IMG/VR virus record: IMGVR_UViG_3300028573_000004
Span: 1 to 43,423 of that record
Source of the DNA: a virus
Direction: 5' to 3' (one strand)
DNA: 43,423 nucleotides
Part shown: positions 7,791 through 22,962 of the stretch, one piece after another
Layout: each line of letters starts with the position of its first letter
Position numbering within the stretch: position 1 is the first letter of the stretch
Notes under the pieces: model-generated
The model's input: only the letters and a program-made list of their open reading frames with translations
What the model was told of the DNA's origin: nothing
Databases searched by the model: none
Made by a program: the position numbers and the translations under genes

Positions 7791-8207
7791 ATGAATGATT
7801 TAAACGTAAAAATATTTGAAATGCCAATTAATGCGCCCAAGGATTTGATAGATAATATCACTTCTAGGGGGGATGGATTTTGTATGAGTGGCTTTCAGAA
7901 ATTTATTATTAGTCTGTTTCAGCATAAAGAAGAATTAACTGTTAATGATATCGTGATTGCTTATTTTAATATCTATAACGAAGTGAAGAAAAGGGCATGC
8001 ACACAGCACGCATTAAGGGGGTTAATTAACCGAAAAATCGTTATCTCGCATACGAAAGGAATTTATTTGAAATGTATTAAGCCAATCGAAACGGCTGCCA
8101 CCGTTAATGAAGATAAAGTTAGTGAGCTTCAAAAGCAAATTAAAGTACCAAGACAATATTGGGCTAAATCTAAGGAGAGAGTGGGGTTGACACTGAAAAC
8201 ACAATAA
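7791..8207 (+). CDS. hypothetical protein with winged-helix-like region, 138 aa
   Basis: A strong AAAGGAG site. Residues about 35-100 (TVNDIVIAYFNIYNEV...ALRGLINRKIVI...KGIYL) have the helix-helix-recognition-helix-wing order of winged-helix DNA-binding proteins. The C-terminal part is lysine-rich. No named family is recognised. It could be a phage regulator or replication accessory factor. Confidence 0.6.
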   Translation: MNDLNVKIFEMPINAPKDLIDNITSRGDGFCMSGFQKFIISLFQHKEELTVNDIVIAYFNIYNEVKKRACTQHALRGLINRKIVISHTKGIYLKCIKPIETAATVNEDKVSELQKQIKVPRQYWAKSKERVGLTLKTQ

Positions 8208-8222
8208 GCGGAGAATACGACA

Positions 8223-8375
8223 ATGAAACTATTCTTAGTTGATATCGGAAACAAATACATGCTGGTTCAAGAAATAGAGGGGATTGACGTCCCTATTGTG
8301 GATTACGTCCACGGTGAGCTTGCAGTTTTTGACAAACAATTTATTGATGAACAGAGAAGGAAAATTAAATCATGA
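8223..8375 (+). CDS. small hypothetical protein, 50 aa
   Basis: An ATG with a GGAG site, coding to a TGA that overlaps the next ATG (ATGA). The sequence alternates beta-like hydrophobic segments (FLVDIGNKYMLVQEI) with an acidic, lysine-rich tail. Not recognised. Coupling to the RID-repeat gene suggests joint expression. Confidence 0.55.
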   Translation: MKLFLVDIGNKYMLVQEIEGIDVPIVDYVHGELAVFDKQFIDEQRRKIKS

Positions 8376-11459: not shown

Positions 11460-12275
11460 ATGAACACAATTACACTAAAAGATAATCAATCCGATCATTT
11501 CCAGTTAATCACCTACCCGGATGGTCAGCATAATATTATTCTAGATATGACTAAGCTGAACAAAAAAGAGCTCGTGACGATTAACTGTAGGATTAAAAAC
11601 TTTGCTGAACTTGAAGTGCTGCTTTGCTTAGGAGCGGCGCTTCATAAGAATGATTTCCATTATGAGATATTTTTCGCTTATTTATTTGGCATACGCGATG
11701 ACCGGGGATTTTGCGAGGGGCAGCCAAATTATTTTAGGGATGTCGTTGCGAAAATATTGATTACCACTAAAGCACTTGACATAAGTGTACTCTGGCCTTT
11801 TTCTCCCTTAAGCATAAGGGCTTATGGGCGCATGATTAGCCATCAAACTTCAACAAAAAACCTTTGGAGCAAGTTTTCAGACCTTGCCGAAAACAAGATC
11901 ATTATCGCCGGAGATAAGTCGGCTCGGGAATTTATGGATGCTTTTGATGACTATCCCTATTTCGAAAAGAAAAGAATAAATGGCATCATTGATATCGATA
12001 TGGATGATAAAACAATAGATGAAATAGAAAAGCAGGCGGCCTTAGGCAAAGAAATTCTTATAGTAGATGATCTCTGTGACGGTGGCGCCACCTTTATCGA
12101 AGAAGCTAAGGGCCTTAAAAGTATTATTCCTGATGCCAAGCTTTCCTTATTTGTTTGCCATGGCCTATTCACCAAAGGAATAGATGTCCTGCTTGAGCAT
12201 TTTGAGCATATCTATTGCACGAACTCGTATCAGGATATTAACCACCAACGCGTAACCCAGTTCGAGGTGATCTAA
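11460..12275 (+). CDS. PRPP synthetase-like protein (Prs/Adps type), 271 aa
   Basis: Residues 199-212 (ILIVDDLCDGGATF) are the PRPP/phosphoribosyl-binding loop of ribose-phosphate pyrophosphokinases. FGIRDDR near 76-82 sits where Prs has its ATP-binding region. The protein is shorter than cellular Prs (about 315 aa). It overlaps the NAMPT-like gene at TAATG, so the two are made together. Either it makes PRPP for NAMPT, or it is an ADP-ribose pyrophosphokinase (Adps) of the phage NAD+ reconstitution pathway NARP1. Sequence reading alone cannot decide between these substrates. Confidence 0.8.
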   Translation: MNTITLKDNQSDHFQLITYPDGQHNIILDMTKLNKKELVTINCRIKNFAELEVLLCLGAALHKNDFHYEIFFAYLFGIRDDRGFCEGQPNYFRDVVAKILITTKALDISVLWPFSPLSIRAYGRMISHQTSTKNLWSKFSDLAENKIIIAGDKSAREFMDAFDDYPYFEKKRINGIIDIDMDDKTIDEIEKQAALGKEILIVDDLCDGGATFIEEAKGLKSIIPDAKLSLFVCHGLFTKGIDVLLEHFEHIYCTNSYQDINHQRVTQFEVI

Positions 12276-13705
12276 TGTATATTAATACCATATTCATGAA
12301 AGACTTCTATAAAGTAAACCACTTTGAGCAATACCCTCCTGGAACCAACCTGGTGTTTAGTAACTTCACTCCGAGGAAGTCCAGAATACCCGGGATTAAG
12401 CATTCCGTGTTTTTTGGATTAAAATATTTTATAGAAGAATATCTGAAGAACAAACTTATGGGGCTATTTCATTGCATCGATCTAATCGATGACTATGAGA
12501 ATTTAATGCTTCAAACAATAGGAAATAATAATGACTATGATAATGTATTAAAATTATCTCGCCTGAAATACTTACCATTAGCCATTTATGCGCTTCCAGA
12601 GGGAACCATAGTTCCTGAAGGCGTGCCTGCATTGGTAATGTATAATACTCATCCTGACTTCTTCTGGCTAACCAACGCGCTAGAAACCATCCTGTCTTGC
12701 ACACTATGGGGCCCTTGCACGTCTGCTACTCTAGCTAATGCTTATCGAGAAATACTCGACCGCTATGCGGATGAAACCTCAGATTGCCCTGGGGTTGTCG
12801 ACTTCCAGGCGCATGACTTTAGCTTCCGAGGCATGTATGGACTAGAAGCGGCTATGATGTCAGGAGCTGCGCATTTAGAGTATTTTAGAGGCACAGATAC
12901 CATCCCCGCTATTATGTTTCGACAAAACTATTATGACGATTCACTGACTTGCGGGACGTCTGTGCCCGCCACAGAGCATTCTGTTATGTCGGCTGGCGGT
13001 ATGGAGGATGAATATGAAACCTACCGCCGCTTAATTGAAGATATCTATCCGTCAGGAACGGTTTCAATTGTCAGCGACACATGGGATTTATGGTATGTCA
13101 TCGATGAACTACTGCAAACATTGAAAAATAAAATTATGGCCCGTGATGGCAAGGTAGTCATTCGGCCAGACAGTGGGGACCCTGTAAAGATTATTTGTGG
13201 AAATGAAAGGCATCAAATGCGGTGCAATCATGGCACATATGTAGGTGGCTCTGAATCAAAGGGCCTCATAGAAAGCCTCTGGGACATCTTTGGCGGCACG
13301 ATAAACAGTAAGGGCTATAAAGAGCTAGACCCGCATATAGGAGCTATATACGGCGATTCTATCACGCTAGAACGCTGCGAAGAGATATGCAGACGACTTA
13401 AAGCAAAGGGCTTTGCCAGCACAAACATAATCTTCGGGATAGGCTCTTACACCTATCAGTACCAGACCCGCGATAGTTTAGGCTGGGCAATGAAAGCCAC
13501 CTATGTAGAGATTAACGGTGTTGGCCGTGCGATTACCAAGAACCCTAAGACTGATGACGGCACCAAGAAGAGTCACGCGGGCTTACTTAAGGTTATCAAG
13601 AATGCAGAAGGTAAGCTTGAGGTGCAGCAGAACGTTACCTGGGAACAGTTTCATGAGCCCGACAATGAGCTGAAGCTGGTTTTTAAAGACTATAAATTTA
13701 GGTGA
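12275..13705 (+). CDS. NAMPT-like nicotinamide phosphoribosyltransferase (NadV or Namat type), 476 aa
   Basis: Full-length match to the NAMPT family: FMKDFYKVNHFEQYPPGT at the start, DFSFRGM at 181-187, PATEHSVM with His at about 235, and IRPDSGDP at 296-303. These correspond to the phosphoribosyl and nicotinamide sites. NAMPT makes NMN from nicotinamide and PRPP; related phage enzymes (Namat) instead join nicotinamide to ADPR-pyrophosphate, giving NAD+ directly. No NMN adenylyltransferase is seen in this genome, so either host NadD/NadR finishes the job or the pair is NARP1-like. A GAGGTGATC site supports strong translation. Confidence 0.9.
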   Translation: MYINTIFMKDFYKVNHFEQYPPGTNLVFSNFTPRKSRIPGIKHSVFFGLKYFIEEYLKNKLMGLFHCIDLIDDYENLMLQTIGNNNDYDNVLKLSRLKYLPLAIYALPEGTIVPEGVPALVMYNTHPDFFWLTNALETILSCTLWGPCTSATLANAYREILDRYADETSDCPGVVDFQAHDFSFRGMYGLEAAMMSGAAHLEYFRGTDTIPAIMFRQNYYDDSLTCGTSVPATEHSVMSAGGMEDEYETYRRLIEDIYPSGTVSIVSDTWDLWYVIDELLQTLKNKIMARDGKVVIRPDSGDPVKIICGNERHQMRCNHGTYVGGSESKGLIESLWDIFGGTINSKGYKELDPHIGAIYGDSITLERCEEICRRLKAKGFASTNIIFGIGSYTYQYQTRDSLGWAMKATYVEINGVGRAITKNPKTDDGTKKSHAGLLKVIKNAEGKLEVQQNVTWEQFHEPDNELKLVFKDYKFR

Positions 13706-20340: not shown

Positions 20341-22962
20341 CTATGCTGCTTTAATGAAATCCCATGAATAAGTGGACGTATCGGCACCATTACTGGACGT
20401 GATGGTAAATGACGCCCCATTACTGATGGATGTCCTGACAATCCCTTGCGTACCGCCTGCGGCGGTACAATTTAGATGGATAATATCGCCCGTCGCAACT
20501 GCGCTAGTAGTCACGGTTGCCGTACCGCCCACCAATGTGACGCCTGTCCCTGCGCAAGCGTTTGACCCTTGTTTTATCTTTAGGGTTTTACCTGCCGTAT
20601 TTATTATAGCATCCCCTGAGTTTAGGGTGGCATTACCCGTTGTCGTTATAGAACTGCCAAAAGTGACAGTCCCATCACCGTTCAACAAAATGTCCGCGCT
20701 AGAAGGAAGACCGGTACCATCGCCTCGACCAATTGATATTTTACTGCCACTCCCAAAACCTGAGATATAGCAAGCATTTGGTGGTACAGCTCCGGTGGTT
20801 GTATTCTTATTAACACCTAAGAAAACTACGTCCGTTCCGGTCTTTTGGATTTGTACCCCGAATAAATTGGAGGCGGACGGTGAACCGATAGAATTAAACC
20901 CCCCCATTGATCCAGCTTGTGATGAGCTTCCAGTGGTATTATTTACGGTAAATCCGGCATTAACTGTTAAAGAGCCTGCTAAAGCCATAGTGGATGTCGT
21001 CCCTGTCCCACCAGTTATGACTACTGTATCGATGCTATTAACTACATCATAAATATGATATTTAGCGTCGAGGGTTCTTAACCCTGTCGCCCAAATATCA
21101 GTAGCCCCGGTTTTGTAATGAGTCTGCGCATATCCATTGGCTTGATCTCCCCGGACAAGATTTAAGCCGCCTTCATTCATTGAGCCTGTCGTTGTCGATG
21201 TAATTGTCTCAAAAACAGCCCCTGTTCCTGAAATATTAAGGCCGCCGAATTGTGGGATAGAAGTGGTTGCTATGGATTGTGGTAAAGTTAGTGTAACAGC
21301 CCCTGTTTGGGCGCTACCTGATGTGCTGTTTGCTAATACCTGATTCGCGGTTCCAGTAATGCTTGCCACCGTATTACTGGTAGTAGCCAGTGTCCCAGAC
21401 GTTGGGAAGGTGACCGATGTTGTGTTGGTTAAAGTCCCTGTAAATGCAAAAGCGCCGCTATAAGTAACATTGCCACCAATTGTAATGGTTTTACCCGTAT
21501 TTGCGACACCTGTGCCACCGTTATCACCGGGGAGTATTCCAGTAAACACACTCGACCCAGCCGCCAAATCTAATGACCCGAATTCAGCATATACGCCGTT
21601 TGTCATTCTAAGTGGCTGCCCAGCCGTACCAATCGCTCCATATAATTGACCGCTAGAGGTAGTTAAAGTCACAGCTCCCGCTACACTTGGGAAAAAAACA
21701 TCCCCCGCAGAGCTTAGCTGAAATATATTGCTACCTGAGCCATTCTGGATCATGTAATAGTTGCTGCCTGCAATAGGGCCAGCTAAGTATTCAGTTGAGC
21801 CATTAATCTGATATGTTACTGATGATGCTGATAAAACATCAGCTCTGTTTAATACTAAACTGACATTACCACTACCGCCTGTAGTTGTGCTTCTTATTGA
21901 GCCACTTTGATTGCCTGTGCCAGAAATAGCTAACCCTGTGGCTGTGGCCGCAGTAGTTGCGCTGGTTGCATTACCGGACAATGATGCTGTAATAGTACCA
22001 GCTGAAAAATTTCCAGAAGGATCTCTTGTCACAATTGCGCTGGCTGTGTTTGCACTGGTTGCGGTCGTGGCGGAATTAGATACTTTACCAGACGTAGATA
22101 TTGTTAATAATTTAGTATCAGCAATTGACCCGGCCAGCATGGTATTTGTGACTTTTGAGCTGCCTATTGCGGTGACACCGCTGCTATTTATAGTCACATC
22201 TCCTGAAGTTGGCTGCGAAACCCAAGCGCTACCAGAACCAATTAATAAGTTTCCTGCTGTTGCCGTCGTGCTTCCTAATGAAACACCGTTGATCTTGGAA
22301 ACTGTTGGATTAGGGTAACTGCTACTTAAATCCCCACCAGCTGCCCCACCAGGCGCAACACCGGAAATAGTTGTATTTGTTACTGCTGTTATTAGACCTT
22401 TACCATTAACAGTAAATACAGGGACTTGGCTTGAACTACCAAAGCTACCAATATTTGAATTTACAGTGGCTAGGGTAGTGGCATTACCAACGCTTGTGAC
22501 ATCACCCGTCAAATTAGCATTAGTAGTAACAGTGGCCGCATTACCGCTAATCGAAATGCTATATGTCCCACTGGCCGCAATAATATTTTGGTCTATATTC
22601 GTAGCTAACAACGTGTTAGTAGCAAATCCGGGAAGATTGTATGTGGTTCCAGTAAACCCTAAATAAATAGTATTGGTCGTCGCTTGATAGGCTTGCCAAT
22701 TGGTAAGACTGCCATTCCTGATCGCTTGCAGTTGAATTAATGAATCTTCTGAGCCTAATGTGCTATCAGCAGAACTTATTAATATCCCGCCATAGTTTAC
22801 ATAGTCAGAACTATCTGCATTCAACTTAATTGCTGCATAGCCGGATGAGATGGATTGCACTGTTCCGTCTGTAGAATTATATAGCGCTGTACCGCTGACA
22901 TTTCCTATGTCAGGCAAATCCGCGGATTCCGCCACAGGTATTTGCAGAACTGGTTTTTTCAT
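20341..22962 (-). CDS. large tail fibre protein, 873 aa
   Basis: Low-complexity Ser/Thr/Gly/Asn-rich sequence with many short beta-helix-like repeats, for example NLTGDVTSVGNATTLATVNS and GDLSSSYPNPTVSKINGV, both well known in phage tail fibres. The N-terminus begins PVLQIPVAESADLPDIGNVSGTAL. No enzyme domain or chaperone is visible. As a trimeric fibre it would reach the host surface. It is the most distal of the fibre genes, and its length and repeat content suggest fast divergence. Confidence 0.8.
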   Translation of the reverse strand: MKKPVLQIPVAESADLPDIGNVSGTALYNSTDGTVQSISSGYAAIKLNADSSDYVNYGGILISSADSTLGSEDSLIQLQAIRNGSLTNWQAYQATTNTIYLGFTGTTYNLPGFATNTLLATNIDQNIIAASGTYSISISGNAATVTTNANLTGDVTSVGNATTLATVNSNIGSFGSSSQVPVFTVNGKGLITAVTNTTISGVAPGGAAGGDLSSSYPNPTVSKINGVSLGSTTATAGNLLIGSGSAWVSQPTSGDVTINSSGVTAIGSSKVTNTMLAGSIADTKLLTISTSGKVSNSATTATSANTASAIVTRDPSGNFSAGTITASLSGNATSATTAATATGLAISGTGNQSGSIRSTTTGGSGNVSLVLNRADVLSASSVTYQINGSTEYLAGPIAGSNYYMIQNGSGSNIFQLSSAGDVFFPSVAGAVTLTTSSGQLYGAIGTAGQPLRMTNGVYAEFGSLDLAAGSSVFTGILPGDNGGTGVANTGKTITIGGNVTYSGAFAFTGTLTNTTSVTFPTSGTLATTSNTVASITGTANQVLANSTSGSAQTGAVTLTLPQSIATTSIPQFGGLNISGTGAVFETITSTTTGSMNEGGLNLVRGDQANGYAQTHYKTGATDIWATGLRTLDAKYHIYDVVNSIDTVVITGGTGTTSTMALAGSLTVNAGFTVNNTTGSSSQAGSMGGFNSIGSPSASNLFGVQIQKTGTDVVFLGVNKNTTTGAVPPNACYISGFGSGSKISIGRGDGTGLPSSADILLNGDGTVTFGSSITTTGNATLNSGDAIINTAGKTLKIKQGSNACAGTGVTLVGGTATVTTSAVATGDIIHLNCTAAGGTQGIVRTSISNGASFTITSSNGADTSTYSWDFIKAA

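Follow-up and report, generated by a model that had tools for sequence, protein, structure and literature searches.

A divergent, probably functional NARP1 cassette with an unusual Adps in a phage with a P22-like portal

Does a pair of overlapping phage genes, one resembling PRPP synthetase (Prs) and the other NAMPT, supply PRPP and NMN, or does it rebuild NAD+ from ADP-ribose (ADPR) and nicotinamide (NAM) as a NARP1 operon? The pair is located in the IMG/VR record IMGVR_UViG_3300028573_000004, a linear and possibly incomplete record of 43,423 nt that is analysed here at its full length (the window). The first gene (11460–12275, + strand) encodes an Adps-like protein of 271 aa with a PRPP-synthetase fold, a short catalytic loop and no histidine at a key position. 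The second (12275–13705, + strand) encodes a 476 aa protein, a putative nicotinamide ADP-ribose transferase (Namat). The original prediction had recognised the overlapping genes and the PRPP loop from the sequence. Both open reading frames are real, the adps stop and the namat start sharing one base (TAATG), and the PRPP-type loop ILIVDDLCDGGATF was found at residues 199–212 of the first protein (12054–12095, + strand). An AGGA is present a few bases 5' of the adps ATG, and promoter and terminator scans of the window gave signals not clearly above chance. The window contains a single Prs-like gene. Pairs homologous to these two genes exist in many phages, which argues against a chance association.

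The absence of an NMN adenylyltransferase, also predicted, was borne out: PF01467 (CTP_transf_like, the NMN adenylyltransferase fold) had no match in the 43 kb, possibly incomplete record, while positive controls worked. The NARP2 (NAMPT-NMNAT) arrangement, in which an NMN adenylyltransferase is encoded beside NAMPT, was thus not found in this record. The window also showed no match to NUDIX, for which positive controls worked, to the macro domain, or to the RyR domain, whose positive control was equally silent. PADLOC returned weak PRTase matches only.

The 476 aa protein matched NCBIfam PRK09198 at 530 bits, above the cutoff of 405, and PHROG 448 at 591 bits, profiles named after nicotinamide/nicotinate phosphoribosyltransferase. 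The closest solved structures were PDB 9w5x and 9w5w, whose sequence is that of the Namat of the Bacillus phage SPbetaL1; the window protein is 54% identical to this crystallised enzyme. The selectivity of Namat for ADPR-PP depends on a clamp, made of an arginine in the clamp loop and of the helix motif GSX-Phi-X-Phi-X-Phi-TRD (PMC12774641). By alignment, R37 (codon 12383–12385, + strand) corresponds to the adenine-stacking R40 of the SPbetaL1 clamp loop. The helix motif reads GSYTYQYQTRD at residues 390–400 (13442–13474, + strand), with aromatic residues Y392 and Y396 at motif positions 3 and 7. The Nampt-like catalytic core is present, with the catalytic histidine in PATEHSVMS (codon 12977–12979, + strand; H245 in SPbetaL1) and R297 (R306 in SPbetaL1). 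Nineteen of the 21 NAD+/NAM-contact and catalytic positions were identical in the two proteins, and both exceptions, the aromatic swap F392Y and A362S, also occur in ICP1.

Phages of the NARP2 or NadV type (phi-Grn1, CcrMagneto, Slopekvirus) have the NAMPT-fold enzyme in common with the window. In contrast, the six Nampt controls (phi-Grn1, a Slopekvirus, CcrMagneto, Rhizobium, Rhodococcus and Cupriavidus) lacked the clamp, and read GG[GA]L where Namat has GS[FY]; the flanks fetched for them contained no neighbouring Adps. An Adps-like ORF was nearby at nearly all clamp-bearing loci having enough flank. In a quick tree, computed without bootstrap, the Namat and Nampt groups were split with an SH-aLRT of 100, and the window fell within the Namat group. 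This placement, proposed in the original prediction as a check, agrees with the clamp residues and the motif; every sequence test applied identifies the NAMPT-like protein as a Namat and not a NadV.

Several variants were seen in the Namat clade and around it. Twelve Namat-like loci (L035–L039, L044, L050, L055, L060, L064, L067 and L070) carry several extra residues within the clamp helix, e.g., GSFSMQCLETTNERDETVLNPYTRDT; they still have an Adps gene near, and their specificity may differ. The chain of PDB 9ke8, named nicotinamide phosphoribosyltransferase, lies inside the Namat clade and reads GAQTYQRNTRD, devoid of the aromatic clamp residues. On a Persicobacter plasmid (L095), unannotated genes for Adps and for a Namat whose clamp is intact adjoin each other. 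At L012 and L030 the Adps is in two ORFs, next to an otherwise readable Namat.

The first protein scored 107 bits against PHROG 619 (ribose-phosphate pyrophosphokinase), had no match in a Pfam search, and with other Prs models fell well short of the cut-offs. An Adps profile built without the window recovered it at E = 1.3e-24 but gave E. coli Prs a higher score, and is thus by itself no means of separating Adps from Prs. In a tree, the protein grouped with phage Adps and apart from the four Prs with an SH-aLRT of 100, the deep branches being long, and its gene adjoins namat. This gene thus falls with Adps and not with true Prs. The placement with biosynthetic NadV/Prs that the original prediction had named as refuting NARP1 was found for neither protein. 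The AlphaFold model (pLDDT 90.6) showed the PRPP-synthetase fold over its whole length (Z about 21), with low confidence (60–66) around residues 111–130. The protein shares this fold and the invariant D, K, R and DD residues with PRPP synthetases (Prs/PRPS), whereas it is shorter, belongs to a separate clade and lacks the ATP/Mg histidine. The Prs-like protein is, by its predicted descent, a divergent member of Adps.

Among known systems, the NARP1 of SPbetaL1 (PDB 9w5w/9w5x for Namat) has the same gene order and one-base overlap as the window, and its Adps and Namat together make NAD+ from ADPR and NAM (PMC12774641). The clamp and catalytic residues of its Namat are conserved in the window. 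In contrast, the window Adps is only about 17% identical to that of SPbetaL1 in the family alignment, lacks the PHSD histidine, reads GD in place of PD, and is shortened in its catalytic loop. The NARP1-type pairs of Bromden, ICP1, FelixO1-like phages and Kayvirus likewise consist of an Adps-like gene near one for a clamp-bearing Namat, but their Adps all keep the histidine and the phages are about 70–150 kb, compared to the 43 kb window record.

The missing histidine, which had escaped the original prediction, is replaced by F114 (TTT codon, 11799–11801, + strand), which corresponds to H102 of SPbetaL1 Adps, H131 of E. coli Prs and H130 of human PRS1. The histidine was kept in 146 of the 148 aligned Adps/Prs sequences, a set which includes E. 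coli Prs; phenylalanine was found only in the window (WPFSP) and in a second phage contig, L002 (WPFIP). Its value as a mark of Adps, which the window does not carry, derives from near-invariance in the present survey and not from a published criterion. The E. coli residue, H131, is a ligand of Mg2+ and makes contact with the phosphates of ATP (PMC9232217, PMC6332680). The H130A mutant of human PRS1 forms no AMP and still makes ADP (PMC4363470), so that activity of the window Adps cannot be assumed. Two further motifs, PDxGA and KxRDxxTG, have also changed. In the shortened catalytic loop, K170-K171-R172 (11967–11975, + strand) retain the lysine and the arginine, and the usual DxxTG is lost. 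The Adps-invariant residues D81, D152, K170, R172, D203 and D204 are retained, as is T211.

A shortened catalytic loop and a change of PD to GD or AD characterise a clade of six records (the window, L002, L003, L113, L115 and L116). The last three were added by a search with a 62-member alignment, and their recovery confines the histidine loss to the window and L002. A sequencing error was rejected as the cause of the phenylalanine, the two WPF stretches being on separate contigs whose Adps are 61% identical; a misalignment was also rejected, as the alignment of L113 (SPHSD) and L115 (YPHSP) is gap-free in this region. The portal protein is P22-like and related to the window's in each of the six records and in L106. 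In L106, positions 7995–8354 encode a 119 aa N-terminal fragment of Adps and there is no Namat, indicating that the operon can be lost. A direct query with Adps gave no match in viral contigs, and a three-member Adps alignment found the known loci and the L106 fragment only. In bacterial genomes the same alignment, in a search reaching close matches only, found no close relative of the clade. The only additional contig from two degenerate DNA patterns was L107, whose Adps is of the standard, His-bearing type.

Is the altered gene maintained? The window and L002 proteins are 61% identical for Adps and 80% for Namat. This relation of Adps to Namat divergence (0.61 versus 0.80) is ordinary and sits among the higher values for comparable pairs (median 0.50). 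Codon dS was saturated between the two adps genes, and counts by codon position were used in place of dN/dS: the differences numbered 94, 54 and 152 at positions 1, 2 and 3, mostly third. In matched trees, the Adps and Namat lengths of the window/L002 stem were 0.53 and 0.23, a ratio not above that of L113 (0.85 and 0.26). Both genes are under purifying selection, and Adps is not accelerated relative to Namat. With the adps gene intact, decay is not evident. The changes are regional: the PRPP-loop and C-terminal segments were at the high end of conservation among comparison pairs, whereas the segment after the histidine position and the catalytic loop differed more than in any of the 38 comparison pairs. 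Such a pattern is better explained by an altered active site in a gene that is kept, the activity of its product being putative, than by general decay.

We consider it likely that the pair is a divergent NARP1 operon converting ADPR and NAM to NAD+. The original prediction had left NARP1 and PRPP/NMN supply side by side; the clamp, motif and tree of the second gene favour NARP1 over NMN supply, but the first gene is atypical in its His to Phe replacement. In the proposed mechanism, Adps would transfer pyrophosphate from ATP onto ADPR to give ADPR-PP, and Namat would combine ADPR-PP with NAM to form NAD+, in two steps overall. The phage would thereby restore the NAD+ cleaved by host NADase defences, a counter-defence role that we infer from tested relatives. 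The substrates of both window enzymes are putative. The Adps is within NARP1 by descent, but its ATP/Mg site is altered, which makes the first reaction a presumed one; the His-less enzyme may still be active, perhaps with an altered Mg-ATP site. Namat alone can form NMN from PRPP in vitro (PMC12774641), and so is not strictly dependent on Adps. This use of PRPP, the His to Phe change, the altered PDxGA and KxRDxxTG, the divergent catalytic loop and the loss in L106 count against the NARP1 reading.

Most of these observations bring up the main alternative, rather unlikely in our opinion, of an Adps-like protein with no pyrophosphate transfer. It would be a binding or regulatory relic, or have a new chemistry (ATP to ADP), and Namat would act mainly as a NAMPT on host PRPP, the host converting NMN to NAD+. 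The altered ATP/Mg site, PDxGA and catalytic loop are in line with it, as is the fold, which the window Adps shares with human PAP39 and PAP41, non-catalytic Prs paralogues. The PRPP activity of Namat in vitro points the same way (PMC12774641). The human H130A mutant, which makes ADP without forming AMP, provides a precedent (PMC4363470). Against this stand an intact gene under purifying selection, whose divergence along the window/L002 lineage shows no acceleration over Namat, and the high conservation of the segments at the PRPP loop and the C-terminus. None of the invariant residues (D, K, R, DD and T) has been lost. The ADPR-PP clamp of Namat is likewise retained, a weak argument as few residues are involved. 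A doubtful version, still less probable, is that in the window and L002 the His-less Adps changed its chemistry: it would bind ATP and ADPR without the usual pyrophosphate transfer, giving another phosphorylated ADPR product or serving as an ADPR-binding partner beside a clamp-bearing Namat.

An ordinary biosynthetic Prs and NadV pair, supplying PRPP and NMN, is suggested by the profile names, ribose-phosphate pyrophosphokinase and nicotinamide/nicotinate phosphoribosyltransferase. It is very improbable: clamp residues, motif and trees put the proteins with Namat and Adps and not with Nampt and Prs, and the proposed Prs would lack the histidine that PRPP synthetases keep. A decaying, functionless operon, for which the Adps fragment without Namat in L106, a record with a related portal, could be a precedent, is hardly credible given two intact genes, an overlap as in SPbetaL1 and L002, and third-position-biased differences from L002.

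The neighbourhood of the operon contains other genes of interest. A YspA-type SLOG protein is encoded in both phages (window 16381–16746; L002 8831–9190). Viral SLOG proteins have been proposed to act on ADPR derivatives (PMC9503650), so this one may be connected with NAD+ counter-defence. An HD_4-domain phosphohydrolase (14944–15654) follows a short distance downstream of the operon. A TROVE/Ro60-like protein (17880–19223, within 17222–19306) is flanked by tRNA genes for Asn, Pro, Glu and Thr. The protein encoded at 20341–22962, a likely tailspike, has a C-terminal K1 capsule lyase domain, which hints at a capsulated Gram-negative host.

If a phage with a P22-type portal indeed carries a divergent NARP1 cassette that probably works, the system would be of a known kind, its unusual part being Adps, the enzyme of NARP1 that is understood least. 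As of January 2026 the structure of Adps was still unresolved (PMC12774641). A natural lineage devoid of the key ATP/Mg histidine, in which the gene is intact and the Namat clamp is kept, offers a direct test of the Adps mechanism. Through NARP1 a phage can regain NAD+ from what bacterial NADase defences leave of it, and the present records show NARP1-type operons in small P22-portal phages.
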